Positions 1,405 to 34,716 of a stretch of DNA of 35,376 bases are shown in pieces. This DNA is from Oscillospiraceae bacterium (GTDB taxonomy: Bacteria; Bacillota; Clostridia; Oscillospirales; Oscillospiraceae), in NCBI GenBank assembly GCA_017458065.1, contig JAFTGD010000058.1:1-35376 (forward strand), given 5' to 3'. Below the pieces are notes generated by a model. That model was given only the letters and a program-made list of their open reading frames with translations, was not told the origin of the DNA and searched no databases. Within the stretch, counting starts at the first letter, position 1. Each line of letters begins with the position of its first letter. Position numbers and translations under genes: made by a program.

Positions 1405-2868
1405 TTAACTCCTTTCGATGTTTGCCTTTACGGCGGCGATCAGGTCTTCCTGAGTGCGGGACTTGCATTCGAGTGCCCGGAGGATCTGCTCGTCAATTGT
1501 TTTCTCAGTGACGATGTGGGTCACAACGACAGTACGGGACTGCTGGCCCTGACGCCAGAGACGGGCGATACACTGCTCGTAGAGCTCCAGCGACCAGGTG
1601 AGTCCGAACCAGATCATGGTATGGCCGCCCTGCTGGAGGTTGAGGCCGTGGCCCGCAGAGGCCGGATGGATGAGGCCCACGGGGATCTCCCCGGCGTTCC
1701 AGCGGCGGATGGAATCGGGCTCGCGGATCTCGGCATAAGAAATGCCGAGGCGGGAAAGCCGCTCCTGAATCCGGGACAGATCGTGCCTGTACCAGTAGCA
1801 TACAAGAACGGGACTTGTGGCTGCCTCCAGCAGGTCTTCCAGAGCGTCGAGCTTTCGGTCGTGGAAGACGGCGGGCGCGCCGCTGTCGTCATAGACGCAG
1901 CCGTTGGCCAGCTGCGACAGCTTGCTGGACAAGGATGCGGCTGACGTCGCTGTAAGCTGCACATCCATTCGCTTCCCCGAAGCGTCGGGAAAGCTCAGTC
2001 GTTCCGCTACAGCTCCTCTTCGACTCAAACCCGCTTCGCTGGGCTTTGAGTCGATTATGAAATCCTCGGACGTAAGAACAAGATCTCTTTTCAGCTTGTC
2101 ATAGGCGGCGCGTTCGTCGTCGGACATTTTGACAACGGTGCGGGTGCTGATGAGCTCCGGCATGGAAAGGTGGTCCATAGCCTTCATGGAGATCGTGATA
2201 TCCGCGATCCGTTTATAGATCTGTTCCTCCGCTCCCGGACGGAGACGGTAGGAGTAGACGATGCTGCCGTTTGTCTTCTCCGGGGTGAACCAGGCCGCCC
2301 GGTAACGGCCAATGAAACGTCCCAGGCGCTCGCCCATGTCGAGGCAGCGGTACTCGGCAAAGAGATCCATCAGGCCATTGGAGCTGGGAGTGCCGGTGAG
2401 GCCGACCACACGCCGAACATGCGGTCGCAATCTCATAAAGGCTTTAAAACGCTGTGACTGCCAGGACTTGAAACTCGAAAGCTCATCAATGACGACCATA
2501 TCGAAGTTCAAAGGAAGGCCGCTCTTTTCCACCAGCCACGGCAGATTCTCTCGGTTGATGATGGTAATATCTGCGTTCTGTACCACCGCTGCCCGTCTTT
2601 CAGACTCCGTGCCCACCGCCACGGCAAAGGTCAGGTGACTCAGATGGTCCCACTGTCGGAGCTCGTCCGGCCAGGTCATTTTCGCCACGCGGAGTGGGGC
2701 GATGACAAGGACACGGGAGACCTCAAAGGAATCAAACATCAGATCTTCGATGGCGGTCAGAGTAATGGAGGTCTTGCCGAGGCCCATATCCAGGATGACT
2801 GCTGCAACCGGATGGGTCTCGATAAAGTTGATGGCGAAGTGCTGGTACTCATGAGGGTGATATTGCAC
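1405..2868 (-). CDS. SNF2-family DEAD/DEAH helicase (phage type), carrying an in-frame repeat insertion
   Basis: A superfamily 2 helicase of 487 aa. The N-terminal domain shows motif I (LDMGLGKTSITLTA), motif II (VVIDELSSFKS) and motif III (GLTGTPSSNGLMDLFAEYR). The C-terminal domain ends in motif VI (QCIARLWRQGQ). Phage members of this family sit beside VRR-NUC nucleases and primases and are thought to act in replication or recombination. The start is the GTG at 2868, six bases after AAGGAGG; the longer open frame upstream is the overlapping VRR-NUC gene in another frame. About 34 residues (roughly 272-305) between RDLVL and LTATSAASLSSKLSQL are encoded by the antisense strand of a structured repeat (1954-2054) and have no counterpart in the family. 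The frame is kept. The insertion lies between the two helicase lobes, where it might be tolerated. Confidence 0.88.
   Translation of the reverse strand: MQYHPHEYQHFAINFIETHPVAAVILDMGLGKTSITLTAIEDLMFDSFEVSRVLVIAPLRVAKMTWPDELRQWDHLSHLTFAVAVGTESERRAAVVQNADITIINRENLPWLVEKSGLPLNFDMVVIDELSSFKSWQSQRFKAFMRLRPHVRRVVGLTGTPSSNGLMDLFAEYRCLDMGERLGRFIGRYRAAWFTPEKTNGSIVYSYRLRPGAEEQIYKRIADITISMKAMDHLSMPELISTRTVVKMSDDERAAYDKLKRDLVLTSEDFIIDSKPSEAGLSRRGAVAERLSFPDASGKRMDVQLTATSAASLSSKLSQLANGCVYDDSGAPAVFHDRKLDALEDLLEAATSPVLVCYWYRHDLSRIQERLSRLGISYAEIREPDSIRRWNAGEIPVGLIHPASAGHGLNLQQGGHTMIWFGLTWSLELYEQCIARLWRQGQQSRTVVVTHIVTEKTIDEQILRALECKSRTQEDLIAAVKANIERS
1954..2054 (+). repeat. structured repeat element, copy 1 (inside the SNF2 gene, antisense)
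   Basis: Full copy of about 100 bp. It has a 5' arm GCTGTA (1949-1954 region) matched by TACAGC in the linker, then a hairpin GCTTCCCCGA-AGCG-TCGGGAAAGC, then a terminal hairpin with outer stem TCGACTCAAA/TTTGAGTCGA around CCCG-CTTCGC-TGGGC. It is read in frame by the minus-strand helicase gene. Because the first hairpin is palindromic, both strands encode a similar peptide (F-P-D/E-A-S-G-K). The 3' flank (helicase codons for KRDLVL) is AT-rich. Confidence 0.8.
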
Positions 2869-3130
2869 GGAGAACCTCCTTGATCTGTTCCGGTCGGTCG
2901 ATGACAAAGACATCAAAGCCGAGAGCTCGGAGCCGGGTATGGCGGTGGAGCTGAAGCGGGCGGGGTTTCTTCCCCGGGGCCTTGAGCTCCACAAAGGCAA
3001 GGCGGCCTCCGGGCATCAGGACGAGGCGGTCGGGCATGCCGTCCATACCTGGTGAAACAAACTTGGGACATAACCCGCCTGCACTTTTCACTGCATCAAC
3101 GAGCTTCTGTTCAACCTGTTTTTCAAGCAT
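2849..3130 (-). CDS. VRR-NUC domain nuclease
   Basis: A single-domain PD-(D/E)XK nuclease of 93 aa of the VRR-NUC type, common in phage replication modules. The catalytic frame is visible: N-terminal helix EKQVEQKLVDAVKSAGG, GMDGMPDRLVLMPGGR with the metal-binding Asp, then FVELKAPGKKP with the E-x-K pair, and a C-terminal DVFVIDRPEQIKEVL. The family acts on branched or flapped DNA. I chose the ATG at 3130 because GGAG lies eight bases upstream; an ATG six codons earlier has no ribosome site. It overlaps the helicase start by 20 bases, indicating translational coupling. The first roughly 20 codons are clearly AT-richer than the rest and directly follow a structured repeat (copy 2), as at other copies. 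Confidence 0.88.
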   Translation of the reverse strand: MLEKQVEQKLVDAVKSAGGLCPKFVSPGMDGMPDRLVLMPGGRLAFVELKAPGKKPRPLQLHRHTRLRALGFDVFVIDRPEQIKEVLRAISPS

Positions 3131-3154
3131 TATGTAAACTCCATTCATTTGTTC

Positions 3155-3256
3155 ATCACATCAGAGCCCAATGTAATGGGTCTGATGTGAAAAGGACGAA
3201 CAGCGGAGGGAGCAAGCTTTCCTGACGCTTCAGGGAAGCGAGTCGATCCGGAGCTT
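3155..3256 (-). repeat. structured repeat element, copy 2 (between primase and VRR-NUC)
   Basis: Full copy in the same orientation as the genes. In minus-strand order: AAGCTCCGGATC, hairpin GCTTCCCTGA-AGCG-TCAGGAAAGC, linker ending CTGTTCG, and terminal hairpin TCACATCAGA-CCCA-TTACAT-TGGGC-TCTGATGTGA. The VRR-NUC ribosome site and start lie just downstream. It is preceded by about 100 bp with no assignable gene (3257-3361). Confidence 0.8.
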
Positions 3257-3361
3257 GTGAGGACGAGGTGACGGTCGTGACAGTCTCTCCTATGACTTTT
3301 CCTATAGAAGAAAAAAAGGAGCCAGAAGAGAGTTATGGATAAGAGTGTCACGAGTGTCACC

Positions 3362-5581: not shown

Positions 5582-5591
5582 GATTCCCTCC

Positions 5592-6149: not shown

Positions 6150-6569
6150 ATGGAAAAAGAAAAGATCCTGGACAACATTCAAAAATTAGTGCTCTGTGGA
6201 CGGGCCATGTTAGACGCGATGGAAGAACTGACCACGCTGTATATGACCGCCGAAGAACCCAACGCGGCTGGAGTCGAATCAAGCTCCATATCCACTCGCT
6301 TCCCCGAGGCGTCGGGAAAGCTCGGTCACTCCGCTGATTCTCCTCTTTCGTCACAGACCCGCTCCGCTGGGCTCTGTGACGAGGGAGAACGGGTAAAAAG
6401 CGCGACGCTGGAAGAGGTACGGGCACTGCTGGCGGAGAAATCCCGCAGCGGTTTCCGGGCAGAGGTAAAAGCCCTGCTCACAGCACACGGAGTGCACAAG
6501 CTGTCGGATATCAGTGACCCGAAGGAGCTGGGGGCACTGATGGCGGAAGCACAGGAAATCGGGGCATGA
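6150..6569 (+). CDS. small phage protein upstream of DUF2800, with an in-frame repeat insertion
   Basis: A 139-aa protein at the head of the rightward replication operon, with a strong GAAGGAGG site eight bases before the ATG. Related phage proteins in this position are often labelled rrp5-like by automatic annotation; that name carries no functional meaning here. The natural parts are the N-terminal helix (KILDNIQKLVLCGRAMLDAM) and the C-terminal segment VRALLAEKSRSGFRAEVKALL, with LSDISDPKELGALMAEA. Between them, residues about 44-78 are encoded by structured repeat copy 3, giving a Ser/Pro-rich peptide containing TRFPEASGKL. The open frame is maintained through the insertion. It overlaps the next gene by four bases (ATGA). 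Confidence 0.7.
   Translation: MEKEKILDNIQKLVLCGRAMLDAMEELTTLYMTAEEPNAAGVESSSISTRFPEASGKLGHSADSPLSSQTRSAGLCDEGERVKSATLEEVRALLAEKSRSGFRAEVKALLTAHGVHKLSDISDPKELGALMAEAQEIGA
6281..6382 (+). repeat. structured repeat element, copy 3 (inside the gene at 6150-6569, sense)
   Basis: Full copy. The 5' arm GAATCA matches TGATTC in the linker. The first hairpin is GCTTCCCCGA-GGCG-TCGGGAAAGC, and the terminal hairpin is TCGTCACAGA-CCCG-CTCCGC-TGGGC-TCTGTGACGA. It is read in frame in its sense direction. Here the 3' flank is only weakly AT-rich, so this may be an older copy. Confidence 0.8.
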
Positions 6570-7706: not shown

Positions 7707-8279
7707 ATGTCAACTTCAAAAGCCGCAACGAAAGTCATTACCGGAAAGAACACCATCTTCTCTTATCTGTGCGTCAACGAGCCGAAAGCGCCTCTGGGCG
7801 GCGGCACACCGAAATACAGCGTGAGTCTGATCATCCCGAAGAGCGACACCGTCACCGTCGCAAAGATCCGGGCAGCCATTGAGGCGGCCTATGAGGAAGG
7901 CCAGGCCAAACTGAAGGGCAGCGGGCGGGCAGTCCCCTCCCTGGGTGCGCTGAAGACGCCGCTGCGGGACGGTGACCTGGAACGGGCAGGAGACGACGTC
8001 TATAAAGGATGCTGGTTTCTCAACGCGAACAGCGTCACCAAGCCCGGCGTTGTAGACGCGGCGCTGAACCCGATCATCGATCCGGGAGAGCTGTACTCCG
8101 GCATCATCGGGAGGGCGAGCATCAACTTCTACGCGTTCAACTCCAACGGCAACAAGGGCATCGCCTGCGGCCTGAACAACCTGCAGAAGCTCAGCGACGG
8201 GACGCCGCTCGGCGGACACAGCAGGGCGGAGCTCGACTTTGCCGGACTGGACGATGATGACGACGACTTCCTCACATGA
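7707..8279 (+). CDS. DUF2815 ssDNA-binding-like protein
   Basis: A 190-aa phage DUF2815 protein, a family regarded as single-stranded DNA-binding or replication accessory. Visible family signatures are GKNTIFSYLCVNEPKAPLGG, KYSVSLIIPKSD, ALKTPLRDGDLER, GCWFLNANS and GRASINFYAFNSNGNKGIAC. It ends in an acidic tail (DDDDDDFLT), as in many SSB proteins where the tail binds partners. The ATG at 7707 is chosen because AAGGAG lies ten bases before it. Its stop codon overlaps an ATG (ATGA at 8276) that was once the start of the DNA polymerase gene. Confidence 0.85.
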   Translation: MSTSKAATKVITGKNTIFSYLCVNEPKAPLGGGTPKYSVSLIIPKSDTVTVAKIRAAIEAAYEEGQAKLKGSGRAVPSLGALKTPLRDGDLERAGDDVYKGCWFLNANSVTKPGVVDAALNPIIDPGELYSGIIGRASINFYAFNSNGNKGIACGLNNLQKLSDGTPLGGHSRAELDFAGLDDDDDDFLT

Positions 8280-8368
8280 TCAAGACTCTGAGCATCGACA
8301 TTGAAACACGAAGCGGAACAGACGACGTCCTCACAAGCTCCGGATCGTCTCGCTTCCGTCAGGCTTGA
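8276..8368 (+). pseudogene. relic 5' end of the DNA polymerase gene
   Basis: The ATG at 8276 overlaps the DUF2815 stop in the standard ATGA arrangement and encodes MIKTLSIDIETRSGTDD, the same start as the intact polymerase 183 bases downstream (MIHTLSIDIETRS). The reading then runs into structured repeat copy 4 and stops at a TGA in its first hairpin (8366-8368). It is the former start of the polymerase, left behind when the element inserted. The 13 comparable codons differ at eight positions, seven of them synonymous. Confidence 0.8.
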
Positions 8369-8436
8369 CGAAAGCTCGCTCCCTCCGCTGCTCGTCCTCT
8401 TTCGGAGAAGACCCACTGCGTTGGGCTCTTCTCCGA
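8335..8436 (+). repeat. structured repeat element, copy 4 (5' end of DNA polymerase)
   Basis: Full copy. AAGCTCCGGATC, first hairpin GCTTCCGTCA-GGCT-TGACGAAAGC, linker, terminal hairpin TCGGAGAAGA-CCCA-CTGCGT-TGGGC-TCTTCTCCGA. It is preceded by ACGTCCTCAC, shared with copy 5. A new ribosome site (GAAAGGAA) and start codon lie 15-23 bases downstream. Confidence 0.85.
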
Positions 8437-8458
8437 TTTATTATAGAAAGGAAATGTG

Positions 8459-10414
8459 ATGATACACACATTAAGCATAGATATAGAAACAAGAAGCAAA
8501 ATCGACATTACTAAGAGTTGGGTCTACCGCTATGCGGAGGATCCGGACTTTGACATTCTGCTTTTCGGGGTCAGTGTCAACGGCGGACCGGTGACGGTCT
8601 ACGACCTGGCCTGCGGAGAAAAACTGCCGGAGGAGATCCTGGAAGCAATTGTCAGCGACGATGTCACAAAATATGCCTATAACGCGAGCTTCGAACGGAT
8701 ATGTATCAGCAAATGGCTGGGGAAACAGGGTTTCCTCAACCCTAAGAGCTGGCGCTGCGACATGGTCTGGGCGGCATACAACGGGCTGCCGCTGGCACTG
8801 GCGCAGGTTGGCACGGTACTGGGACTGGAGAGACAGAAGATGACCGAGGGGCGGGCTCTGATCCGGTACTTTTGTATACCTGCGCCCTCAGATGCCACAG
8901 ACGGGATGTTTTCCGATGAGGAAACATCACATTTCCACTCCCCTGCGGACGCACCGGAGAAATGGGCGCTGTTCAAGGCCTACAACAAGAGAGATGTCGA
9001 GGTCGAAATGGCGATACAGGAACGGCTGCGGAGCTATCCGGCGCCGGAAAGCGTCTGGGACGAGTATCACCAGGATCAGGAGATCAACGACCGGGGGATC
9101 CGGATCGACCGGGAACTGGTGACACAGGCCATTGAGCTGGACCGGATCAGCCAGGCACGGCTGATGGAGAAGCTGAAAAAACTGACTGGGCTGGAAAACC
9201 CCAACTCGGTCAGTCAGCTGAAAGGATATCTGGAAGAGAGCGGCATGCAGGTGGAGAGCCTCGGAAAAAAACAGGTTCAGGCAATGCTGGCAGATGCCCC
9301 CGGCACACTGCAGGAGATTCTGGAACTCCGTCTTCAATCCTCCAAAAGCAGTTTGAAGAAATATGAGGCAATGAAAAATGCCGTCTGTGAGGACGGCAGG
9401 TGCAGGGGCATGTTCCAGTTCTATGGTGCGAACCGCTCCGGGCGCTGGGCCGGGCGCCTCATCCAGCTGCAGAACCTGCCCCAGAACCACATGGCAGATC
9501 TGAACGAGGCGCGGGAGCTGGTGAAAGCCGGAGACGCCGAGATGCTGGAGCTTCTCTACCCCTCCATCCCAGAAGTGTTGTCAGAACTGATCCGGACAGC
9601 CTTTGTCCCGGAAGCTGGTAAAAAGTTTATCGTGGCGGACTTCAGCGCCATTGAGGCGCGGGTCCTGGCTCACCTCGCCGGTGAAAACTGGCGGGCGGAA
9701 GTCTTCCGGAACGGCGGAGACATCTATTGCGCCTCGGCCAGTCAGATGTTCCGGGTGCCGGTTGAAAAACACGGTATGAATGGACATCTGCGGCAGAAAG
9801 GCAAGATCGCGGAGCTGGCGCTGGGCTACGGCGGCGGGGTCGGCGCGCTCAAGGCGATGGGTGCCATCGAAATGGGACTAACAGAAGAGGAGCTGCAGCC
9901 GCTGGTCAGCATGTGGCGGGAGGCCAACCCCAACATCGTAAACTACTGGTGGAAGATCGACGCAGCGGCGAAAAGCGTCATCCGGGACCATGTGCCAGTC
10001 GAGGGCGGGCTGGTCCGGTTCGAATATCAGCACGGGATGATGTTCATCACGCTCCCCAGCGGCAGATGCCTCGCCTATGTGAAACCGAAGATCTGTGAAA
10101 ACCGCTACGGCGGTGAGGGAATCAGCTACTGCGGGCTCACAGCACAGAAGAAGTTCGAGCGGATCGAGAGTTACGGGCCTAAACTGGTGGAAAACATCAC
10201 GCAGGCCATCAGCCGTGACATTCTCGCTCACGCCATGAAGACGCTGCGGAAGGAACGGATCGTCGGGCACATCCATGACGAGATCATCCTGGAGACAGAA
10301 AAAGACGCCAGCGTCCGGTACATCTGCGAACAGATGGGCAGGACGCCGGCGTGGATCCCGGGGCTTATGCTCCAGGCCGACGGGTATGAATGTGAATACT
10401 ACCGAAAAGAGTGA
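8459..10414 (+). CDS. family A DNA polymerase with 3'-5' exonuclease domain
   Basis: A phage replicative polymerase of 651 aa. Exonuclease motifs are intact: LSIDIETRS (Exo I), YNASFERICISKWLG (Exo II) and YNKRDVEVEMAI (Exo III). The polymerase domain carries motif A (VADFSAIEARVLAHLAGE), motif B (RQKGKIAELALGYGGGVGAL) and motif C (GHIHDEIILE). The start is the ATG at 8459 after GAAAGGAA; a GTG directly before it is less likely. The first roughly 20 codons are very AT-rich (about 30 percent GC by hand count) and duplicate, with different codons, the relic start at 8276. The original translational coupling to DUF2815 has been lost, so expression now depends on the new ribosome site. It ends three bases from the convergent sigma-like gene. 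Confidence 0.92.
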   Translation: MIHTLSIDIETRSKIDITKSWVYRYAEDPDFDILLFGVSVNGGPVTVYDLACGEKLPEEILEAIVSDDVTKYAYNASFERICISKWLGKQGFLNPKSWRCDMVWAAYNGLPLALAQVGTVLGLERQKMTEGRALIRYFCIPAPSDATDGMFSDEETSHFHSPADAPEKWALFKAYNKRDVEVEMAIQERLRSYPAPESVWDEYHQDQEINDRGIRIDRELVTQAIELDRISQARLMEKLKKLTGLENPNSVSQLKGYLEESGMQVESLGKKQVQAMLADAPGTLQEILELRLQSSKSSLKKYEAMKNAVCEDGRCRGMFQFYGANRSGRWAGRLIQLQNLPQNHMADLNEARELVKAGDAEMLELLYPSIPEVLSELIRTAFVPEAGKKFIVADFSAIEARVLAHLAGENWRAEVFRNGGDIYCASASQMFRVPVEKHGMNGHLRQKGKIAELALGYGGGVGALKAMGAIEMGLTEEELQPLVSMWREANPNIVNYWWKIDAAAKSVIRDHVPVEGGLVRFEYQHGMMFITLPSGRCLAYVKPKICENRYGGEGISYCGLTAQKKFERIESYGPKLVENITQAISRDILAHAMKTLRKERIVGHIHDEIILETEKDASVRYICEQMGRTPAWIPGLMLQADGYECEYYRKE

Positions 10415-11198: not shown

Positions 11199-11251
11199 AG
11201 CTCATTGGCTCAGAGAAACCCACGATTATGGGCTTCTCTCAACAAATGAGC
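11199..11251 (+). repeat. probable partial structured repeat (terminal hairpin only)
   Basis: AGAGAA-A-CCCA-CGATTA-TGGGC-TTCTCT (around 11212-11239) has the CCCR-N6-YGGGC core of the terminal hairpin with copy-specific arms. Outer arms GCTCATTGG/CAAATGAGC extend the pairing. The first hairpin of the family is not recognisable upstream, so this is a degenerate or truncated relative. It lies in a gene-free stretch (11114-11417). Confidence 0.45.
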
Positions 11252-13370: not shown

Positions 13371-13483
13371 AGTGTCAGGAAAGCTCGCTCCCTCCGAGCA
13401 AAGCTTGGATCGTCGCGCGTTTCTCGCGCGTCGCTATGCTCGTCTTTTTCGATGAAGACCCACTCCGTTGGGCTCTTCATCGA
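13345..13483 (+). repeat. structured repeat element, copy 5 (composite, 139 bp)
   Basis: This longer copy has first hairpin GCTTCCCTGA-AGTG-TCAGGAAAGC. It is followed by what looks like a second unit head: CGAGCA-AAGCTTGGATCGTC, a hairpin CGCGCG-TTTC-TCGCGCG-like segment, then TGCTCG, which pairs with CGAGCA. The terminal hairpin is TCGATGAAGA-CCCA-CTCCGT-TGGGC-TCTTCATCGA. It supplies the end of the repressor gene and lies just upstream of the SRAP start, whose first codons are AT-rich. Confidence 0.75.
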
Positions 13484-18858: not shown

Positions 18859-18875
18859 GCAAAGCCCCTCCCCTT

Positions 18876-21389: not shown

Positions 21390-21440
21390 TCTACTGTCTC
21401 TCCGTCATTCATAAACCTTCTGAACTCCGCTTCCATCTGC

Positions 21441-22205: not shown

Positions 22206-22239
22206 CTTAACACCAATCCTTTGTCTTATGATTCGACAA

Positions 22240-25200: not shown

Positions 25201-25887
25201 GATGATCTCGACCTGACCTTCTTTTTCCACATTGAAATCATCTTCGCTGATGTCATGGGTCAGATGATAGATAACACCATCCTTATCGGTGAAGGAGATG
25301 GTCAGGAGCAGTTCGGTGTAATCAGACGTTTTTTCAAACAATCCCGGAAGGATGTCATTGAGCCTATTACACTGCCTGATGAAGAGCATGCGGAAAAGCT
25401 CGTCCAAGTTGTTCCGGTCCTTCAGCTGGAGGACAAGGTCTTTCTCGTACGGAGTAAACTCCAGATCCGTCTCAAAAGGCGTCGTAACAAAGTCGGGCTC
25501 CAGCTTGTTCGGGTTGGAAGACGACAGAACACGGATACGGGAGGGCAAATAATCATTGACCTCCATGAAACGGACAGCGACAAGGCGGTTAAACCAGGTA
25601 TAGGCCACCTCTTCTACGACATTGCGAAAGGCAGTCTTATAGTCAGAGGTCTTTTCTTTTGCCCGAATGGCGGCCAGCAGAGCATTCCGCTGCTGAATCT
25701 CAGCACCGGAGACTTCCACATAGTCTTTTGTCCCGATATCAAAGAACTGCAGATCCTTGGTGGACTGCGGCATCGGCAGGGCAATCCCCTTCTCGGTGAT
25801 GCCCAGCATACCTGCTCTATAGGTGATATCGGAGATGAGCTTCCGTCTGGCCCAAATCGCGAAGTTCTTGATCGCTGTCTTATTCAT
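22240..25887 (-). CDS. pglX: BREX adenine-specific DNA methyltransferase PglX
   Basis: The 1215-aa length is typical of PglX. The methyltransferase core shows motif I in LIDPCMGSGHILVYAFDVLM and motif IV in VVTNPPYMGAGGMG (around residue 510), the N6-adenine type. It methylates a non-palindromic host motif to mark self and is also needed for exclusion. The ATG at 25887 follows GAGG and lies 14 bases after brxC. Bases about 23285-24200 (residues roughly 560-870, including the expected target-recognition region) are conspicuously AT-richer than both ends, as if this specificity segment had been exchanged. The frame is intact throughout, with no sign of phase variation such as a homopolymer tract. 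Confidence 0.94.
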   Translation of the reverse strand: MNKTAIKNFAIWARRKLISDITYRAGMLGITEKGIALPMPQSTKDLQFFDIGTKDYVEVSGAEIQQRNALLAAIRAKEKTSDYKTAFRNVVEEVAYTWFNRLVAVRFMEVNDYLPSRIRVLSSSNPNKLEPDFVTTPFETDLEFTPYEKDLVLQLKDRNNLDELFRMLFIRQCNRLNDILPGLFEKTSDYTELLLTISFTDKDGVIYHLTHDISEDDFNVEKEGQVEIIGWLYQYYNTEPKDEVFALLKKNVKITKERIPAATQLFTPDWIVRYMVENSLGRLWVEGHPNEELKATWKYYLEEAEQEPEVQVQLAKIREEYAKINPEDIKLIDPCMGSGHILVYAFDVLMQIYTSYGYTQRDAARSILQNNLYGIDIDTRAYQLAYFAVMMKARQYNRRIFNEGILPNLMAVRNPAPHSDSCLKQLGDMEQLGRRLIDDFRDAEEYGSILQLSYTKEELDALEERLNQIRENTDEGNLLVQLESDECVSTLAPLVRQARIMSQKYDVVVTNPPYMGAGGMGTKLSGYVKKHYPDSKSDLFAVFIERCMQMTAQNRFQAMITQDAWMALKSYESLRKRIILRDIITLISLGIGAFEDLNSKIVQSTSFVLRQSSMNEWSGVFDRLYVREGLSENPELKMQRLIDGTHRYYVSKNIFKIVPGTPIAYWLNKQALSAFKEGVLLSEIGSSRVGLQTSDNDRFLRLWFECDMEKTFMNCCTINDSIKSAKKWYPHNKGGLYRRWYGNNEYVINYKNAGFDLRHAEGAAIIPEDYVFRRAITYSRVTSGPTGFRMQSQNSIFDSAAVDIFSEKTDYLIGLLNSKVVKLYLSVFSPGMNTQPGDIAKIPVRINESKSWIIEKLVDDCIILSKADWDSFETSWDFMLHPMLPVYADDPDYAYRVEDFYHLWERRCEDRFNQLKANEEELNRIFIDIYGLQEELTPEVEDKDVTVRKADLSRDIRSLISYAVGCMFGRYSANGPVGLIYAGGEWDPDRYGAFTPDEDNCIPITDVEYFQDDIVGRFVEFIRLVYGNATLEENLDFIAAALGNKGKTARDTIRSYFLNDFYTDHLKIYQKRPIYWLFDSGKQNGFKALVYMHRWNADTVGNLRVEYLHRMQTVYEKEIVNCQDAMDNSLNNRENAAARKRKEKLVKQLKECKDYDAKVAHIALSRIDIDLDDGVKFNYRRVQTAADGRFCEILADSKDIMIKEDSPIWQGRKNT

Positions 25888-25901
25888 AGGAGCAACCTCA
25901 C

Positions 25902-28900
25902 TCAGAATTCGATATTCACAATAGTGTTTTCTTCCAGAGTTCCAATCAGTTTCTTTCTCAACGCTGCCAGATACTGATCGATATCATGTTCCGACTCGAT
26001 CTGCCAGGTGGTGGAAGAGTTGACCGATTTGATGCTGACTGTTTTTTTCTTTTTCAGCGGCTTGACTGGCTCAATCACTTCCGTATCGCCACCACCATCG
26101 ACAGGAGGATACTCGATGACCGTGCGCGCCTCTTCCTCCGCGATCTCATTCAGCAGACGGACCTTAAGCGCATCGGCCTCCACCTTGATATTCTGCAGGG
26201 TGGCAACGTTATTGCAGGAATCCGCTTTTTCGCGCAATCTCGCAAAGCGCTCGATGTATCTGTCACGGAGAGAAACTTCGCACTGCTTGCCGGACAGCTC
26301 ATTCAGAACACGCGTCCTGGCATCGTCGATAGCATCATAGATCGGTTTCGCCATGTCTTCAAGAAGCGCCATATAGAGCGTTGTAAACCTGCTGTTCAGT
26401 TCCGGGAGCTTATAGATACTGCTATACGGAGCCGACATCTTCAGGATCGTCCGGATATCCTTTACAACTATCTCAATCTCTTTGCTGACGATGAAAGTCT
26501 TACTGTCGTTGTAGATCGCCATCAGATTCAGAGACTTATCAAAGATCGATTTCTGCTCCCCTTCAAAGAAGGATTTCAGCGGTTCGAAGTCCTCAGCAAA
26601 ATCGAGATAATTATCCCGCTCAGCATATACGGTTTTGAAGAATTCATCAGAATACTTCATATTCAGGACGGCAATCATCAACTTCTTACCATCATTTACA
26701 AGCTGTTTCCCGGGATAAGCCGGCTGAGACTGATACCGGATCTCCAGCTTTTCGAGCTCTGTTTTCAGGTTTTGGGCATAACCATGGAAGCTCTTCATGA
26801 GAGTCTCCTCATCCTCGGCACTGGAAGACACATGGAAGAGCTCCTTCATGACCTCACGGACGGCCTTGATCTGGTGCTCGCCGGGCTTTTCCTTCTTCTC
26901 GGTCATCAGCTTTTCCACGAACTCTTTTTTGGTGATGTAACGAATGATATCATCATCGGACTTGCTGAAGGACGTCACCGCCTCGCTGTTTACAAACAGC
27001 GTAATATCACCATCTTTAAAGAGCCTGGCAACCAGCCACTTCACATCATCCTCCACGAAGCCGTACGGCGCCTTCATAAAGCGGTCCATTAGAGTCTTCA
27101 TGGAAGTCTTGGTATGCTTGCCGGTGTTCTGGGCAATATAGTCCCTGACATCATTGAGCGCCAGTTCATTCTTCTTTTCGGCTCCAAGCCCAAGCTTCCC
27201 CTGTCCACCTATACCCTTGATCAGCGTACGGATATCCGATTCGCTCATGGCAATATCAATATAGGACAGCTTGTGGTATACCGTCGCCACAAGTTTCGCA
27301 AGCGCTTCGCGGATTCGGCCGGTAATATCCTTGGCCGAAGTCTGAAGCTTATCGCCGGACACATAAATATCCGCAGCTTTCAGCGCATCCGTGAGGAAGG
27401 TCCTGGCATTCTGGTTATGCTCATGCATCTCCGTCCGTTTCGCATTCTTGATCTCTTCATATCTGGCAACGGCATTGGTGGCATCAAAACGGAGGAACTT
27501 TTCAATTTTGGCACTGGCAATAATCTCATCCAGGAACGTTCTGTCATCCGGGAGAACCACAAGGACGCAACTGCTCTGACTGGAAATGAAGCGCATGGTC
27601 TCTTCATCAGAGATTTCGTCGCTATCTGGGGTAAGGACCTTCAGAGTAAGATCATAACCCGAGCTCCCTTTATAGGGGCGGTCATCCACCACCTGATTGA
27701 AGGGGAACGCATAGCGGTTATTAAAAGCGGGGTAACGGTACTTTTTCTCATCAAAAAGGCCATCAAAAATCAATTCCGCAACTTTATTAGTGACTTCTGA
27801 GGAATCAACGCCCTGGTGCGAAATGGCACGATTGATATCCTGTTCTTCATTGGTCAGGAAGACATATTCGTCGTTATTTTTCTGGATCAGCGTCTGCTTC
27901 TCGAGGACTTTCAGCGCATCCTCGACTTTCTTCACCAGTCCCAGACGGTCATCACTGATATCGGAAACCATGAGGCTGGCGATGTTATTGATGTTTGACT
28001 TAATCTCTTTCACATACTTAATCATGAAGAGCGCCTTCAGGACATTTACACGGAAGCAGTCTTCTTCGTGATCGGGATTAATATATTCGTTTTCAAGGGC
28101 CTTCGAGATGACACCTTTGTGGGAGTGTTCGACGAACTCTTCCAGAGCATCATAGAACATATAGAAAGGAACCAGTGCGCCGGTCTCCCTGTCCATGATC
28201 TGCATCGCAGATTCCTTGAACAGCGCGAGCATGGAACGCTCACCATCCGCCAGGTGCTTGCCAGCTGCACCATGCGTCCTGATTGCCGTAAGAACGGCAC
28301 CCAGCAAATCGAACTGGTACGGGACAAAGGGATAAACAGCAGCGAAATTCTCTCTGCCGGAATACAGCTTCTTTTCGATGCCATCATTGAACAGAATCAG
28401 GTTTTTCAGTATGGTAGCCTTGTCATCATACAGAACAGAAAGCGTCTGAGCGGCGACCGGGTCTTTCTTCAGAATACGCTCGCGAATCACTTCATCCACA
28501 TTTGCAGAGGACAGACTGAGTCTGGTATCAAAACGGCCCATGATCTTAGAGAAATCATTGCCTTTGACTTTGATCACGGAGTCAATATCCTGCTGGCTGG
28601 TCACGATGATCCAGGCTTTGCCCCGGCACTCTGTGCCAAGGTCTTCCGTCACTGTCTGCAAATTCAGCATCAAGCGGGAATTATCGCCGATATACTGGCC
28701 AATCTCATCCACGAGAAAAACAACATGGTGGTTCTTCCCTTTGCGGTCTATGTATTTCTTTACAAGTTTGGCGAATTCTTCAATGCTGATGTTGTAGGGT
28801 GTAAACGCTTTCTCACACCAGTTGCGGGCGGCCTCCTCGCTCATGATGTCCATATCAACCAGGACATCCACGACATCATCCTGGCTATAGTCAAACTCAT

Positions 28901-29498
28901 TCCTCGCTTCTACCCATGAATCGCCATTTCGTTCCTCAAACTTTTCTTTGAACTCAACGTACTTTCCATCGTAAGACAGTCTTCTCTCGAGATCAGCGAT
29001 ATGGGGGTTGGCCCCGTAAAAGCCCTGCATCTCATTGAAGACTTTCAAGAAGACAGAAATGATCGCGTCCTTGTCCTGCTTTCCGGAAGCAGCTCCTTTG
29101 GAGTCAATGTTGAACAGGATCACATTGGTCGACGTCTCCGCAGCGAGCTTCATATCTGCAAGGACCATCCCGTCGGTGATTTTTCCGTCTTCGACGAAAT
29201 AGTCAATTGCGCGCCTATTTCCTACTTCCTTGTTCTCAAGCAAATAGGAAAGGATTTTCAGAAAATGAGATTTACCGCTGCCAAAAAAGCCGGAAATCCA
29301 GACGCCCATTTTGTCGGTATTCCCCAGAATGCCCTTCTTATATGCGCTGAAAAACTCGGCAAAATGCTTCTGGAGTTCACGGGTAACGACATATTCTTCC
29401 AGCTCCTGCTGTACATTGGAATCTTCACCCTGGCCGACTTTAATAACGCCTTTGATGTCACGATCGATCCGTTTTACGAACATCTCTTGAATTATCAT
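25902..29498 (-). CDS. brxC: BREX P-loop ATPase BrxC
   Basis: A 1198-aa protein of normal BrxC size. The N-terminal Walker A is in VWISGFFGSGKSHFLKILSY, with a likely Walker B in HHVVFLVDEIGQYIGDN and a sensor-like AWIIVTSQQDIDSVI. The long remainder is helical with coiled-coil stretches and ends in a small basic segment. BrxC is a large ATPase essential for defence and modification. The ATG at 29498 is preferred to the longer frame because GGAG lies seven bases before it. It follows brxB by about 11 bases. Confidence 0.94.
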   Translation of the reverse strand: MIIQEMFVKRIDRDIKGVIKVGQGEDSNVQQELEEYVVTRELQKHFAEFFSAYKKGILGNTDKMGVWISGFFGSGKSHFLKILSYLLENKEVGNRRAIDYFVEDGKITDGMVLADMKLAAETSTNVILFNIDSKGAASGKQDKDAIISVFLKVFNEMQGFYGANPHIADLERRLSYDGKYVEFKEKFEERNGDSWVEARNEFDYSQDDVVDVLVDMDIMSEEAARNWCEKAFTPYNISIEEFAKLVKKYIDRKGKNHHVVFLVDEIGQYIGDNSRLMLNLQTVTEDLGTECRGKAWIIVTSQQDIDSVIKVKGNDFSKIMGRFDTRLSLSSANVDEVIRERILKKDPVAAQTLSVLYDDKATILKNLILFNDGIEKKLYSGRENFAAVYPFVPYQFDLLGAVLTAIRTHGAAGKHLADGERSMLALFKESAMQIMDRETGALVPFYMFYDALEEFVEHSHKGVISKALENEYINPDHEEDCFRVNVLKALFMIKYVKEIKSNINNIASLMVSDISDDRLGLVKKVEDALKVLEKQTLIQKNNDEYVFLTNEEQDINRAISHQGVDSSEVTNKVAELIFDGLFDEKKYRYPAFNNRYAFPFNQVVDDRPYKGSSGYDLTLKVLTPDSDEISDEETMRFISSQSSCVLVVLPDDRTFLDEIIASAKIEKFLRFDATNAVARYEEIKNAKRTEMHEHNQNARTFLTDALKAADIYVSGDKLQTSAKDITGRIREALAKLVATVYHKLSYIDIAMSESDIRTLIKGIGGQGKLGLGAEKKNELALNDVRDYIAQNTGKHTKTSMKTLMDRFMKAPYGFVEDDVKWLVARLFKDGDITLFVNSEAVTSFSKSDDDIIRYITKKEFVEKLMTEKKEKPGEHQIKAVREVMKELFHVSSSAEDEETLMKSFHGYAQNLKTELEKLEIRYQSQPAYPGKQLVNDGKKLMIAVLNMKYSDEFFKTVYAERDNYLDFAEDFEPLKSFFEGEQKSIFDKSLNLMAIYNDSKTFIVSKEIEIVVKDIRTILKMSAPYSSIYKLPELNSRFTTLYMALLEDMAKPIYDAIDDARTRVLNELSGKQCEVSLRDRYIERFARLREKADSCNNVATLQNIKVEADALKVRLLNEIAEEEARTVIEYPPVDGGGDTEVIEPVKPLKKKKTVSIKSVNSSTTWQIESEHDIDQYLAALRKKLIGTLEENTIVNIEF

Positions 29499-29509
29499 GG
29501 CTGGTCTCC

Positions 29510-30088
29510 TCAATCCACAAGCTTAAAAGCTCTGTAATAGTTGTCGTCCTTGATTTCACCAAAGAGGATGAGTTCCTGACCGTCATATTTACCCGGGTAA
29601 AACATGACTACCGGAACATGGTCCACAACCTGATGAAGGTTATTCAGAACCGTATGGGAACGAAGAAGGGGGAAACATTTTCCTATCCCGATCAGAAATA
29701 CCACTGCATTATCCGTCGTATGATCCTTGATATAGTTCACAATCAGGCTGTCCTCGGAAGCAACCCGCATCGTGTTCCCAATCGCACGGATTACGCGCTC
29801 AAAGCCTTTCTTCCTCTCCATCTCCACCGTCTTTTCGATATATCCCTTGGCCTGTAAGGTATCTATGATAATATCATAGAGATCGAAAACGATCACTCGA
29901 AATCCATCCGGAGAGTTCTCATATTTTTGCCTGATATAATTGACCCTTTCCCGGATCAGCATTTCTTTCTCCGCGGGATAATCGAAGATGTAATACCCGA
30001 CTTCATTCCCCAGACCTTTGTTTTGCCGGAAAGACGGTTTTTTTATGATCTCCTCCACCGTATCCAAGCGCTGTTCCAATGTCATCAT
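29510..30088 (-). CDS. brxB: BREX protein BrxB (DUF1788)
   Basis: A 192-aa DUF1788 protein. Landmarks: TLEQRLDTVEEIIKKPSFRQ, GNEVGYYIFDYPAEKEMLIR, FRVIVFDLYDIIIDTLQAKG and the C-terminal VPVVMFYPGKYDGQELILFG. Its biochemical role is unknown but it is required in characterised type 1 systems. The start is one of two adjacent ATGs at 30088 or 30085, overlapping the brxA stop, so the two are translationally coupled. Confidence 0.92.
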   Translation of the reverse strand: MMTLEQRLDTVEEIIKKPSFRQNKGLGNEVGYYIFDYPAEKEMLIRERVNYIRQKYENSPDGFRVIVFDLYDIIIDTLQAKGYIEKTVEMERKKGFERVIRAIGNTMRVASEDSLIVNYIKDHTTDNAVVFLIGIGKCFPLLRSHTVLNNLHQVVDHVPVVMFYPGKYDGQELILFGEIKDDNYYRAFKLVD

Positions 30089-30696
30089 CACCGTACCCCC
30101 ATAATGGCCTTCAGGAACCGTTCCCTGCCGCTGTATTGCAGATATCTCTCCAAAGCGATATCTACGACAGGCGGAGTGATCAAATACCTGGTTTTCTCTT
30201 TCCTCAGGAGATTTGCATCCGTCATAAACTGAAAGTAGCCGGAGCGGAGCCGCTTAAAAGTGGTATCTTTCCAAGCCTTCATATCTTCGTCCTGCAAAGA
30301 TTTATCCGTAAAGAAGACGTTGATCTCGGAAATCGTCAACTCAGAATACCCGAGCTGCACCTTATCTCTGTAGACTTCATTGACAAATTCAAAGAAGAGC
30401 CGATCGCCCATGATAACCGTAATGAAGTTAATCAGCTTTTGCGTAGAGAGATCCGAAGTGCAAAACAGTTCGACCAGCGAATCATCCATCAAATTGATGC
30501 GGTTCAGCAGATAACCGTATGTGCGCAATGCCCGATACGCTTTCGGCATGCCAAACATATTCTCCTCTACACAACGGCGCCGAATTTCTTCCGGTGCTAC
30601 CTTGTCATAAGTCATGAAAACCATCTTCTTGAACTCATGAAACCAAGGCGACTCGGACATCAGGCCGGCACTATAACAAACAGAACGATCATTCAT
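30088..30696 (-). CDS. brxA: BREX protein BrxA (DUF1819)
   Basis: A 202-aa DUF1819 protein, first gene of the operon. Landmarks: YSAGLMSESPWFHEFKKMVF near the N-terminus, IRRRCVEENMFGMPKAYRAL, and a winged-helix-like C-terminal part (YLITPPVVDIALERYLQYSG). BrxA is a small DNA-binding protein in solved structures. The ATG at 30696 has GGAG seven bases upstream; an earlier in-frame start at 30702 lacks this. The whole operon follows the canonical type 1 order except for the HEPN insertion. Confidence 0.92.
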   Translation of the reverse strand: MNDRSVCYSAGLMSESPWFHEFKKMVFMTYDKVAPEEIRRRCVEENMFGMPKAYRALRTYGYLLNRINLMDDSLVELFCTSDLSTQKLINFITVIMGDRLFFEFVNEVYRDKVQLGYSELTISEINVFFTDKSLQDEDMKAWKDTTFKRLRSGYFQFMTDANLLRKEKTRYLITPPVVDIALERYLQYSGRERFLKAIMGVR

Positions 30697-30754
30697 TAGC
30701 AAACTCCACTATCTACATGCACTCAGATATACAAATATTTTAAACCAGTTTAAT

Positions 30755-30783: not shown

Positions 30784-30825
30784 CTGAATTACTCAGGTTT
30801 TTTTCGATAGATTAGGGCACAACAA

Positions 30826-30850: not shown

Positions 30851-30859
30851 GATTGTGTT

Positions 30860-30894
30860 TCGCCTGAAGCCCGTTTCATTGGGCTTTCAGTCGA
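30860..30894 (+). repeat. structured repeat element, copy 6 (terminal hairpin only)
   Basis: TCGCCTGAAG-CCCG-TTTCAT-TGGGC-TTTCAGTCGA matches the terminal hairpin of the family, with one mismatch in the outer stem. The first hairpin is absent, so this is a truncated copy. It ends two bases from the endolysin stop codon (30896), on the opposite strand, and the last codons of that gene are AT-rich. Confidence 0.65.
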
Positions 30895-30895
30895 T

Positions 30896-32165: not shown

Positions 32166-32181
32166 TGAAAATACCTCCATT

Positions 32182-32445
32182 TTATTCGTGCATCAAGCGT
32201 ATTACTATATTCCCGGTTGCCATTCTTTCAATACCCTTGAAGACGGTGAAGCCCTCGAAGGTCCTGCGGTCCTCGTCGAAGACGCGGGTCAGGCTGCGGG
32301 TGTGCTCGGGATCGTTGAAGATGGCGAAGAGAGTGGGCATGTCCTGGACGGCGGTCTCGAAGCGGAGGCTGCCGTCGAAGTCGGAGATGCCGATCCACTC
32401 AATCGGCAGCGAAGTGTTCTGCGCAGTAATAAGTTTTAACATCAT
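32182..32445 (-). CDS. uncharacterised phage protein between tail and holin genes
   Basis: An 87-aa protein of a kind often found between the last tail gene and the holin. Its middle reads GSLRFETAVQDMPTLFAIFN and its end FTVFKGIERMATGNIVIRLM. No function is recognised. CGGAGG lies four bases before two adjacent ATGs (32445 and 32442). The first seven codons are very AT-rich and then composition switches to GC-rich; structured repeat copy 7 lies directly upstream. Confidence 0.6.
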   Translation of the reverse strand: MMLKLITAQNTSLPIEWIGISDFDGSLRFETAVQDMPTLFAIFNDPEHTRSLTRVFDEDRRTFEGFTVFKGIERMATGNIVIRLMHE

Positions 32446-32470
32446 AATCCTCCGGTAGATTTTCGAATAC

Positions 32471-32572
32471 TCGAAGAAGAGCCCAGCGCAGCGGGTCTTC
32501 TTCGAAAAAGGAAGACTGGCGGAGCGACTGAGCTTTCCTCACACCTGAGGGAAGCGAATGGATGTGCAGCAC
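32471..32572 (-). repeat. structured repeat element, copy 7 (between tail gene and the 87-aa gene)
   Basis: Full copy in gene orientation. The 5' arm AGACTG pairs with CAGTCT in the linker. The first hairpin is GCTTCCCTCA-GGTG-TGAGGAAAGC, and the terminal hairpin is TCGAAGAAGA-CCCG-CTGCGC-TGGGC-TCTTCTTCGA. It begins right after the stop of the tail gene (32582) and ends 26 bases before the next start. Confidence 0.85.
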
Positions 32573-32581
32573 AGTCTGACG

Positions 32582-34234
32582 TCAGGTCCAGGTGACTACT
32601 TTACGGTTTACGCCTCCGATGGTGATCTGTTCGAGGGCGAGGTAATGATAGTTTAGAGCAAAAGAGAGCGCCGAGAGGGCGTTAAAGTTGGCGGAGCCGG
32701 TGAAGTAGCCGTTGATGGCGTCGATGTTGGCCTTGTTGGTGCCCACCTGATCCAGCGTAGACTGGAAGCTGGTCTTGGCATAGGAGACCGCGGAGGAACC
32801 AATGACGCGGTTGACGGCGGCGCCGTCGTCGATCTTGGTGGAAGAGAGGGTGTAATCCGCGATCTTGCTGCCCTCGAGGGACTTGGAGGCGATACGGTCG
32901 ACGCTGAGGGTGCCGGCGGTGATCTTGCCGGCGTTGAGGCTCTCGATGTTGGCGTTGGCGATCTTCAGGACGCCGTTTGCGATGGAGCAGCCGCCGATGT
33001 TGCCGGCGGTGGCGTTGACGACGCCCTGGACCGAGAGCCCGTCCCGGTTGACCAGCATGACGACGGCGTTGTCCGCGAGGAGCTGGAACTTGTCCGCGTC
33101 CAGGTACCAGCCGAAGCTGGAGGCGTCGCCCCCGGTGCGCGAGACCTTGGCCGCGATGGCCTGAGCCTGGAGGGTGAGCTCGGACTGGACGTTCTGCAGG
33201 CGGCGGGAGAAGCTGCGCTCCTGCGGGGAGGTATAAGGGTACTCGTGATCCAGCTCCTCGTCCTCCGGGGCCGAGAGGGTAGCGGCGCAGAGCGAATCGA
33301 AGCTGAGGTCGCAGGAGAAGAGGCCGGAGAGCCCGCCGGAGACGGAGACCGTGTCCCCGATCTCGGCCGCCGGATCGACGACCGCGGCCTCGGCGGTGTA
33401 AGGGCGGTAGACGAAGCCCTGCATCAGGGAGAGGAGCCGGTTGGCCGCCGCCTGCGTGGCGAAGGGACAGGAGAGCTCATAGACATAGCCGGTGGCGGAC
33501 CCTGCGAAAACCTCCTGCTCGTTGTCCAGAAGGAAGCGGACGCCGGTACAGGCCGGGAAGGCCGGACTGGTGACGAGGCGGTGGTTGGAGCCGGTGACCG
33601 TGAGATCGGCGGAGGACGAGAGGTCCCAGAGGCAGACGAGGCGGAGCGCCCCCTCATCAGTGATGACAAAGCTGCCACCGTAGAGGGCCGCGATGTACTG
33701 GAGCGTCTCGCGGACGGTGAGGGACGCGGGCAGCGGGACAGAGAAGCCCGCCGTCATCAGGGCGGTGGTGCGGGCGTCCACGGAGACGCCCAGAACGGCT
33801 GCGCACTCGTTGACCACATTAATGTCCGATGCTGGCCAGCTGTGGGAGGTGGACGGATAATTTTGTTCCCCTTTGAGCATGGCGTCGTAGCCCCGGAGGG
33901 TGAGGATGCCTGAGGCGGTGTCCGCCTCGCGGGTGTCAACATAATAGACGCCCTTGGGGATCCACTCGGAATAGCGGGTGCCGTCGGTGCAGCGGACATA
34001 GGGGCGGAGCTGGGCCATGCGGGGGATGTCCGCGGACGAGGCGAAGAGCGAGAGGGAGATCTCCCCTGCCGCCGCGAGGCCCAGGCGCGGGCTGCCGCTG
34101 CCGAAGGCGGCGCGGGAGGTGCGCAGGGCGGTGAGCGTGTCCATGCCGTACTCGGCGCTGGCGATCGCGACCTTGACCTCGAAGCTGTGGCTGCCGCTGA
34201 TGATGGAATTATATAGGGCGGAGGTATTATTCAT
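32582..34234 (-). CDS. phage tail protein / tail spike base (endopeptidase-tail-like)
   Basis: A 550-aa protein. The N-terminal half has the fold pattern of siphophage tail-associated proteins that follow the distal tail protein (SEWIPKGVYYVDTREADTAS, ILTLRGYDAMLKGEQNYPST, LPASLTVRETLQYIAALYGG). The C-terminal half has a trimeric-fibre look, with LQNVQSELTLQAQAIAAKVS and repeated short beta units (NITAGTL-type: NAGKITAGTLSVDRIASKSL). It probably links the tail tip to receptor-binding parts. The start at 34234 overlaps the stop of the previous gene (TAATG). The stop is followed at once by repeat copy 7. Confidence 0.75.
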   Translation of the reverse strand: MNNTSALYNSIISGSHSFEVKVAIASAEYGMDTLTALRTSRAAFGSGSPRLGLAAAGEISLSLFASSADIPRMAQLRPYVRCTDGTRYSEWIPKGVYYVDTREADTASGILTLRGYDAMLKGEQNYPSTSHSWPASDINVVNECAAVLGVSVDARTTALMTAGFSVPLPASLTVRETLQYIAALYGGSFVITDEGALRLVCLWDLSSSADLTVTGSNHRLVTSPAFPACTGVRFLLDNEQEVFAGSATGYVYELSCPFATQAAANRLLSLMQGFVYRPYTAEAAVVDPAAEIGDTVSVSGGLSGLFSCDLSFDSLCAATLSAPEDEELDHEYPYTSPQERSFSRRLQNVQSELTLQAQAIAAKVSRTGGDASSFGWYLDADKFQLLADNAVVMLVNRDGLSVQGVVNATAGNIGGCSIANGVLKIANANIESLNAGKITAGTLSVDRIASKSLEGSKIADYTLSSTKIDDGAAVNRVIGSSAVSYAKTSFQSTLDQVGTNKANIDAINGYFTGSANFNALSALSFALNYHYLALEQITIGGVNRKVVTWT

Positions 34235-34605
34235 TACCGTTCTATAAGTGGAAAGGACAGATCTTTCCAGAGTGCGGTGCCGTCAGGATTGACGGTAGCG
34301 CAGATGGTGGGGATGTTGTTGGAGTACATAGTCCGGGTGACGCTGCCGTCCTGAGGATCGATATAACGGACGGTCACATACTCGGGCAGGATCGCCCGGA
34401 GGACGAGGGCGGCCTCGCTGCTGGTGAGGGGGCGGCAGGTGATATCGAGGCGGACCTTGGTTGCGACACGGCCGCGGTGCATGACGCCGTCGAGGGTGCG
34501 GCCGGTGTCGGGCGCTTCGACATCGAAGCGGGTCCACTTGATGCCGTCCTCGGCGAGATAGTTGAGGAGAGAAACCCCATTCACTGTGAATCTATATGCA
34601 GCCAC
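34234..34605 (-). CDS. phage distal-tail-type protein whose native start was replaced by a repeat element
   Basis: A tail protein of about 123 aa lying between the tape measure gene and the tail spike gene. The recognisable body starts AAYRFTVNGVSLLNYLAEDG and continues WTRFDVEAPDTGRTLDGVMH, then RVRLDITC-like and PEYVTVRYIDPQDG segments. The reading frame is open upstream through structured repeat copy 8 to an ATG at 34695, adding up to 30 residues of element-encoded sequence. I list the GTG at 34605, which lies at the edge of the element and has only a distant GGAG (11 bases). ATGs at 34662 and 34695 are alternatives. The native ATG and ribosome site appear to have been lost. The first codons of the body are AT-rich. 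Confidence 0.6.
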   Translation of the reverse strand: MAAYRFTVNGVSLLNYLAEDGIKWTRFDVEAPDTGRTLDGVMHRGRVATKVRLDITCRPLTSSEAALVLRAILPEYVTVRYIDPQDGSVTRTMYSNNIPTICATVNPDGTALWKDLSFPLIER

Positions 34606-34612
34606 GTCAGAC

Positions 34613-34716
34613 TGTGCTCCATATCGTCTCGTTTCCGTCAGGCATGACGAAAACTCGCTCATTCCGCCAGTCTTCCTTTTTCGAACCAAACCCACTGGCG
34701 TTGGGCTTTGGTTCGA
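34613..34716 (+). repeat. structured repeat element, copy 8 (between tape measure and tail gene, antisense)
   Basis: Full copy opposite to the genes. The 5' arm AGACTG pairs with CAGTCT in the linker. The first hairpin is GTTTCCGTCA-GGCA-TGACGAAAAC, where a G-to-T/A change is matched on the other side. The terminal hairpin is TCGAACCAAA-CCCA-CTGGCGT-TGGGC-TTTGGTTCGA. It ends six bases from the tape measure stop codon. Confidence 0.85.

Follow-up and report, generated by a model that had tools for sequence, protein, structure and literature searches.

What are the structured repeats that lie scattered among phage genes in the window, as we call the whole 35,376-nt stretch analysed here (contig JAFTGD010000058.1 of an Oscillospiraceae bacterium, assembly GCA_017458065.1), and how might they have arrived there? 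An original prediction, made from the letters of this stretch, had listed seven full copies of the repeat and had read in them one common plan with strong covariation; in our alignment all seven are in place, they form one family, and the covariation claimed for hairpin 1 and for the terminal hairpin is borne out. We number these copies 1–7 along the window; each is 110–112 nt long, apart from copy 5 (148 nt). Our reading, to which we give a probability of roughly 0.6, is that they are copies of a non-autonomous mobile DNA element resembling REP (repetitive extragenic palindromic) sequences. The observations that we report concern its fold and strand, a conserved end, its insertion sites, its spread, and its presence or absence at orthologous sites.

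Fold and strand of the repeat

The original prediction was drawn on the strand as read, but it is the reverse complement that is predicted to fold: a variable 5′ hairpin (the terminal hairpin) leads into one long irregular helix of 75 nt, which has GACG at its 3′ end and combines 23 standard pairs with four to five motifs of tandem G·A. Pairs were counted in a main alignment of 51 type-A copies, taken on the folded strand and picked by a motif in which three of the G·A motifs have one side fixed and the partner side free; copies of types B and C stand outside these counts. At the base of the helix the CGTC tag, seen on the folded strand, faces GGA with one G-C pair (51/51) and a tandem G·A, an arrangement kept in 51/51 and 50/51 copies. 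The outer G·A pairs of a GGA/GGA loop occur in 51/51 copies, the G·A positions of a GA/GAU loop in 45/51 and 47/51, and a further tandem G·A beside hairpin 1 in 48/51 and 50/51; overall, eight G·A positions are each kept in 45 to 51 of the 51 copies. Positions 2 and 3 of the five-pair arm are standard pairs in 18 copies and a tandem G·A in 32–33. Among 34 order-level copies that were found by the model only, the matching G·A positions are kept in 34, 33, 34, 30, 27 and 28 copies, and the last motif has one position that is kept in 32/34.

The arms around hairpin 1 had been predicted to pair, and on the strand read they do so in copies 1, 3, 6 and 7. The arms of copy 2 (3156–3265, folded strand +; terminal hairpin 3156–3190, G·A helix 3191–3265), copy 4 and copy 5 (13336–13483, folded strand −; terminal hairpin 13449–13483, with ~37 nt extra, a hairpin, within the linker) are unpaired there, and on the folded strand they form two G·A pairs between standard pairs (copy 5 lies outside the 51-copy alignment and was judged from the seven-copy alignment). 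Reverse-complemented, the arms of copies 2 and 4 set CGAAC or CGAGC against GTGAG: a standard pair, two G·A pairs and two more positions, both of which are paired in copy 4, while in copy 2 one of them is standard (A with U).

Covariation was tested against shuffled and slid controls. In the 51 copies, 91.7% of cells are standard-paired against 74.8% after shuffling, 17 of the 23 pairs have changed on both sides, and cells changed on both sides number 201 against 63.5; none of 500 shuffles matched the observed paired share or the both-side changes. The covariation score is 0.450, against 0.148 shuffled and 0.013–0.091 slid. The pairs covary as well in the order-level set (89.6% standard cells against 68.7% shuffled, 34 copies), bearing in mind that the order- and class-level sets overlap and were aligned to the model, and hence lean towards the structure. 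Of the 34 copies in the order-level set, 11 have standard pairs at both of the two arm positions, 14 have a tandem G·A there and nine have neither; the corresponding figures for the 26 class-level copies are 13, 11 and two.

The strand assignment is supported by predicted energies. With RNA parameters, the 75-nt unit has a mean of −27.9 kcal/mol on the folded strand and −18.2 on the other, and is lower on the folded strand in 51/51 copies; with DNA parameters the means are −11.9 and −9.2, and the folded strand is lower in 49/51. For six whole window copies the predicted values are −51.0, −48.3, −53.2, −54.2, −50.2 and −47.2 on the folded strand, and −41.6, −41.6, −43.5, −41.4, −39.8 and −35.6 on the opposite strand; copy 5, for which one strand was folded, gives −62.6. 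These modelled energies fit RNA and single-stranded DNA alike, and do not tell the two apart. The strong covariation, together with G·U cells at one arm pair (17/51), would also suit a functional structured RNA under selection at each place, such as a 3′-untranslated-region or regulatory RNA or a portable terminator; we consider this unlikely on the evidence of gene ends and orthologs that is given below.

The terminal hairpin is variable. Its outer stem differs between most copies and yet is perfect, with 38 distinct outer 7-mers in 51 copies that were chosen for having the stem (its presence in 51/51 is thus by construction). In the order- and class-level sets it is found in 34/34 and 24/26 copies, against 2.75 and 1.0 expected from shuffles; with strict pairs only, a seven-pair terminal stem is seen in 8/34 and 7/26. 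Such diversity is what one would expect if the perfect stems were kept not by selection on structure but by templated mutation, in which one arm is copied from the other in replication. On the other hand, copying would have turned the G·A mismatches into standard pairs, and these persist. Arm copying may account for a terminal stem that varies and yet stays perfect; it leaves the preserved G·A motifs unexplained, and as an account of the whole we hold it to be decidedly improbable.

Outside the window, the terminal hairpin of copies from other genera occupies the same place, with a variable stem in which G·U pairs are common. Three further variations were recognised by eye: in type B copies the strands of the internal loops around hairpin 1 are exchanged; some copies (L148:4076, L310) have a different internal module between a CGTC arm and TCC; and some make up palindromic composites with a single, shared terminal hairpin.

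The CGTC end and its insertion sites

One end of the element is CGTC on the top strand, and GACG on the folded strand. The copies as originally delimited stopped short of this end: 9 nt, comprising the tag plus arm, lay outside them. CGTC is present in six of the seven window copies, copy 3 has AGTC, and GTC is common to all seven in the alignment; on the top strand the tail is TCC, mostly followed by T. For analysis of the junctions, 235 model matches were reduced to 172 distinct copies, of which 136 have a readable GTC and a distinct flank; removal of near-duplicate flanks and of copies without CGTC gave a junction set of 96, and a terminal hairpin was parsable in 122. The top-strand base immediately before CGTC (−1) is C in 3/96 junctions, and base −3 is a pyrimidine in 77/96. 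In the folded-strand flanks of 40 copies from other genera of the order and class, +1 is G in one and +3 is a purine in 36.

In 11 of 84 de-duplicated copies the CGTC end directly abuts (distance 0) the stop of a frame that is open for at least 150 codons, whereas every other distance was seen at most twice; 10 of the 11 cases are plausible, the open frame of copy 1 being spurious, and other long frames may be spurious as well. In copy 6 (32471–32581, folded strand +; terminal hairpin 32471–32505, helix 32506–32581), CGTC abuts with zero gap the TGA stop of the open reading frame (ORF) at 32582–34234 (−). Furthermore, 11 of 136 copies lie 0–3 nt after tRNA genes, and four lie 1–4 nt before them, some of these places being orthologous. 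The orientation of copies relative to genes is mixed.

Copies also lie within genes. Copy 1 (1945–2054, folded strand −; terminal hairpin 2020–2054, G·A helix 1945–2019) is in frame in the SNF2-helicase ORF 1405–3000 (−), and adds ~32–34 residues to this phage protein by comparison with 13 of 41 viral loci that were aligned and six genomic homologs. Copy 3 (6272–6382, folded strand −; helix 6272–6347, terminal hairpin 6348–6382) is in frame in ORF 6150–6569 (+), a small phage protein whose C-terminal part matches 14 viral loci; the N-terminal parts of these loci align poorly and are without a copy 3-like stretch. One locus elsewhere (L146) is an apparent further in-frame case, with one homolog compared.

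Copy 4 (8326–8436, folded strand −; helix 8326–8401, terminal hairpin 8402–8436) lies at a recombination or duplication junction: at 8279–8470, a remnant resembling the first 18 codons of a DNA polymerase gene is followed by the copy, and then by the full gene, diverged at its start. This placement, with a remnant on one side and the complete gene on the other, the CGTC end exactly after stops, and a conserved fold of variable sequence would be consistent with an attC-like site of a site-specific recombinase, at which folded strands are joined beside gene ends and genes travel as cassettes. However, the copies are dispersed, stand in both orientations, form no cassette arrays and also occur inside genes (attC boxes were not searched for), and we deem such a site very improbable.

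Two sets of orthologs have both filled and empty versions of one site. At one host gene with 29 readable orthologs (30 were fetched, and one that was cut off was left out), the element stands exactly after the stop in four, overlaps the stop in two and is not there in 23; among the last, one (L317) carries an element further downstream and another (L295) a lone terminal-type hairpin only. After pgk, CGTC is at the stop in 2/30 and GGTC in one. The element was also found in 2 of 11 aligned RNase P RNA genes (G381 and G137; 12 genes were found, and one partial was omitted), in the same sense as the RNA. There it forms the tip of a stem, and its GACG stands before AGGTAAGGG. The stem that holds it is presumably P12.

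These sites bear on a selected RNA from both sides. That the folded strand is the sense strand in two RNase P RNA genes is the main reason for keeping a transcribed function in consideration, and the element does occur at the same host gene in several species. Against such a function, copies after stop codons place the less-well-folding strand in the mRNA, gene orientation is mixed, and the element is absent at the same site in most orthologs. Nor are T-runs enriched overall past the hairpin (8 nt hold 1.75 T there and 1.95 farther away, n = 113; 5 or 6 T in 15/113), on which ground we rejected a transcription terminator.

At one gene end in these ortholog comparisons, nine loci (L303, L304, L305, L291, L288, L293, L306, L301 and L316) have other hairpins after the stop codon, with stems that include this codon and its complement; they look as if their arms had been copied from the gene end. 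Unrelated hairpins of this kind at one gene end fit the templated arm copying discussed above for the terminal hairpin. In the RNase P RNA of two other species of the genus (L443 and L445, from G311 and G041), the stem that bears the element in G381 and G137 carries an unrelated insert of similar length.

We hypothesize that the mobile element moves as single-stranded DNA, which might be exposed on the lagging strand, in phage replication or in conjugation. The single strand would fold into the hairpin and G·A helix and be recognised in trans by a cellular or phage enzyme; this enzyme would cut at the GACG end and prefer folded-strand flanks that have non-G at +1 and, at +3, a purine. Copies would survive where they are least harmful, hence their positions at stop codons, at tRNA ends and in loops.

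The GACG end coincides in several cases with a possible start codon (window position 34605, and L189, L200, L187 and L209). The window case is copy 7 (34605–34716, folded strand −; helix 34605–34680, terminal hairpin 34681–34716), whose end overlaps a possible GTG start of a DUF6711 gene. An open frame of at least 80 codons starts −2 to +10 from the GACG end in 17/111 copies, against 8 in a control stretch, and GGAG in the helix could serve as a ribosome site for such frames. Also of interest is an apparently orthologous tRNA array (L015, L025, L034, L063, L164 and L221) in which different elements occupy different spacers by genome; this is a good place to study gain and loss.

Spread of the family and the search for an enzyme

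The repeats had been thought to be scattered through phage genes, but they extend to other contigs, other genomes and other genera. A first covariance model, built from the seven window copies (which it scores, by construction, at 110–132 bits), found 19 places in the bacterium's own genome at E≤0.01: eight in the window and 11 on contigs C18, C20, C22, C26 and C56. Genes resembling those for phage capsids were noticed by eye on C22 and C26, and one resembling rpsD on C18. The same model has matches in 14 of 19 other genomes (those in G015 and G019 being weak, with E-values of 0.0016 and 0.0096), and one genome of the genus has 29. With a second model and stricter filters, copies were found in 50/245 genomes and 34/127 genera at order level, and in 55/391 genomes and 41/223 genera at class level, both counts including the bacterium's own genome; 46 of the 55 lie outside the order. 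By inference, the class is Clostridia. Named records with strong matches bear clostridial titles, many of them Oscillospiraceae or Ruminococcaceae from ruminant hosts.

Pattern searches reached viral sequences too. An exact 32-letter pattern found zero viral contigs, and a looser 28-letter pattern found nine viral stretches and 101 in genomes; 80 of the 101 genome loci and eight of the nine viral loci (L145 was omitted, being on the same contig as L138) were scored with the model. Fourteen of the 80 listed genome loci have non-clostridial bacterial titles, of which L165 is a weak match (22.8 bits) and the other 13 have no model match. Flanks of dispersed copies are unrelated, both on phage contigs and on others.

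We looked for a mobilizing enzyme in two transposase families, Y1 and IS110, only part of the IS110 matches having become loci. Among 49 such loci, mostly with ~1.5 kb on each side, there were zero model matches, and an association with Y1 or IS110 transposases was rejected since no copy lies near them. This result also bears on a miniature inverted-repeat transposable element derived from a conventional insertion sequence whose ends are inverted repeats. Composite palindromes with CGTC at one boundary and GACG at the other do exist, but single copies lack inverted repeats at their ends, target duplications were not observed and the loci of these two families hold no copy; we hold an origin of this type to be very improbable. 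Guide pairing, with the 5′ arm as target and the internal arm as guide, was put aside: CGTC plus arm begins right at stop codons and at the ends of tRNAs, and empty orthologs lack it. Guide-type target recognition is known from IS200/IS605 and group II introns, and one point favours it here, in that the arm of copy 1 encodes residues that align with conserved helicase residues. A scan of the window with Rfam at gathering score found no family that matches the element. In 20 copy-bearing loci the only Rfam matches were RNase P, tRNA and pemK RNA, the RNase P match spanning the inserted copy. Two genomes have pemK RNA (RF02913; L353:1333–1396 and L429:1326–1389) at a distance of ~100 nt from a copy of the element, on the other strand.

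Several points weigh against a mobile element. Its movement is something that we infer, and the same structure could equally serve a transcribed RNA. The window copies are not near-identical to one another, so no recent burst is visible. Besides the absence of copies from the 49 transposase loci, a Y1 match is lacking in the copy-rich genomes G110, G300, G221, G275, G003 and G004 (several of which are incomplete). For the opposite end of the element, the distance to the stop of a long open reading frame is 0 nt in 2/88 copies and 0–8 nt in 7/88, and gene-end closeness is thus not wholly one-sided. A target duplication was not seen even at the best empty site, no empty site being clean to the base. 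In empty RNase P genes the bases before AGG (the conserved AGGTAAGGG) vary, with ACG there in one, so that this junction is certain only to a few nt. Finally, the net gain at copy 1 is ~32–34 codons (96–102 nt) against an element of 110 nt from CGTC; accordingly, either some target was lost or the loop differed.

Known repeats and neighbouring features

The original prediction was not aware of any named family built on such a plan. The CGTC-tagged REP superfamily (Di Nocera et al. 2013, PMC3733652) shares the tag, the hairpin, the location and the presence inside ORFs, though it is far simpler. Its members total 20–40 bp, with stems of 8–9 bp that have AT in first and second position, loops of 4–5 nt, an unpaired tag CGTC (or TGTC/CCTC) and a 3-nt tail that is mostly CCA; they lie near the 3′ ends of ORFs, with some inside ORFs, apparently lack a dedicated transposase, and have been described in Proteobacteria, Chlorobi, Bacteroidetes, Spirochaetes and Thermotogae (the main text of the paper contains neither Firmicutes nor Clostrid). 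Like them, our repeats have CGTC at one end, a palindromic stem and a short tail, lie at gene 3′ ends and inside ORFs, and have no transposase near the copies, as far as the Y1 and IS110 families go. In contrast, the tag here is partly paired (one G-C plus a tandem G·A), the tail is TCC and the stem borders differ; the stem is a long irregular helix of 23 standard pairs with G·A internal loops and variable first positions, and the 110–112 nt (148 in copy 5) include a second, variable hairpin. The two agree in tag and location and in having no known transposase, and disagree in stem, loop and length; the family is probably a larger, CGTC-tagged REP-like element of that kind, with a much more elaborate fold, and probably mobile.

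The same paper describes two Rickettsia palindromic elements, RPE-4 and RPE-6, that also have a CGTC end and lie within protein genes; they differ in their shorter, simple stems and in host phylum (PMC3733652). GTAG REPs, with their Y1 transposases (RAYTs, REP-associated tyrosine transposases), share with our repeats a tag and hairpin, gene-end locations and a proposed single-strand mobility (PMC3733652; see also PMC2817692 and PMC6006769). Unlike RAYT-mobilised REPs, the repeats described here have CGTC rather than GTAG, the Y1 loci that were fetched hold no copy, and a Y1 match is lacking in several genomes rich in copies. Enterobacterial RU, pneumococcal BOX/RUP and Bacillus bcr1 repeats are likewise ~100 bp, structured and dispersed. 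We liken these to our family by description only.

One clostridial species, as we take it to be, is Acetivibrio clariflavus. It is among three Bacillota species, the repeat counts of which are given in a table of RepRanger (PMC12306157), the available text of which does not mention Clostridia, Firmicutes, Oscillospir or Ruminococc. Our literature search, from which subscription papers were mostly out of reach, recognised no clostridial description of such repeats. It is possible that the family was sighted earlier, unnamed, among the 3161 candidate structured RNAs from human microbiomes that are reported in PMC8040213.

A bolder extension of the mobile-element reading, which we offer tentatively and think rather unlikely, is that of a class-wide element whose signal is the repeated tandem G·A helix, whose enzyme is neither Y1 nor IS110, which joins precisely to gene ends, and of which the published CGTC-tagged REPs would be reduced relatives. 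The CGTC strand might then be new DNA, added to the 3′-OH of a functional end (a tRNA CCA end or a stop codon), for example by copying of the element's GACG 3′ end.

A relative of the CGTC-tagged repeats that is larger, strongly structured and widespread would aid the search for the enzyme and tests of movement, both of which become possible because strand, end and insertion sites are known closely enough. The repeats are a hazard for annotation as well: copies give rise to spurious ORFs and to extended proteins, sit within genes for RNase P RNA and enlarge the genomes of phages.

Two partial copies had been proposed in the window, for neither of which a strand was assigned. That at 30860–30894 is upheld as a lone terminal hairpin without helix (match 30856–30894, model positions 78–116, E = 1.3e-5); at 11212–11239 the inner motif of a possible lone terminal hairpin was seen by eye, with no model match at E≤1. 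It is true, as noted originally, that no copy lies between 15.4 and 30.7 kb, though this is weak evidence (a probability of ~0.02 for seven random places). Within that interval, on this contig with phage genes, a BREX (bacteriophage exclusion) gene set without copies occupies the minus strand at 16786–30702 (BrxA, BrxB, BrxC, PglX, PglZ and BrxL; PADLOC models). Near the other end of the window, direct repeats of 21-bp period at 859–993, inside ORF 600–1070 (−), encode a seven-residue protein repeat.

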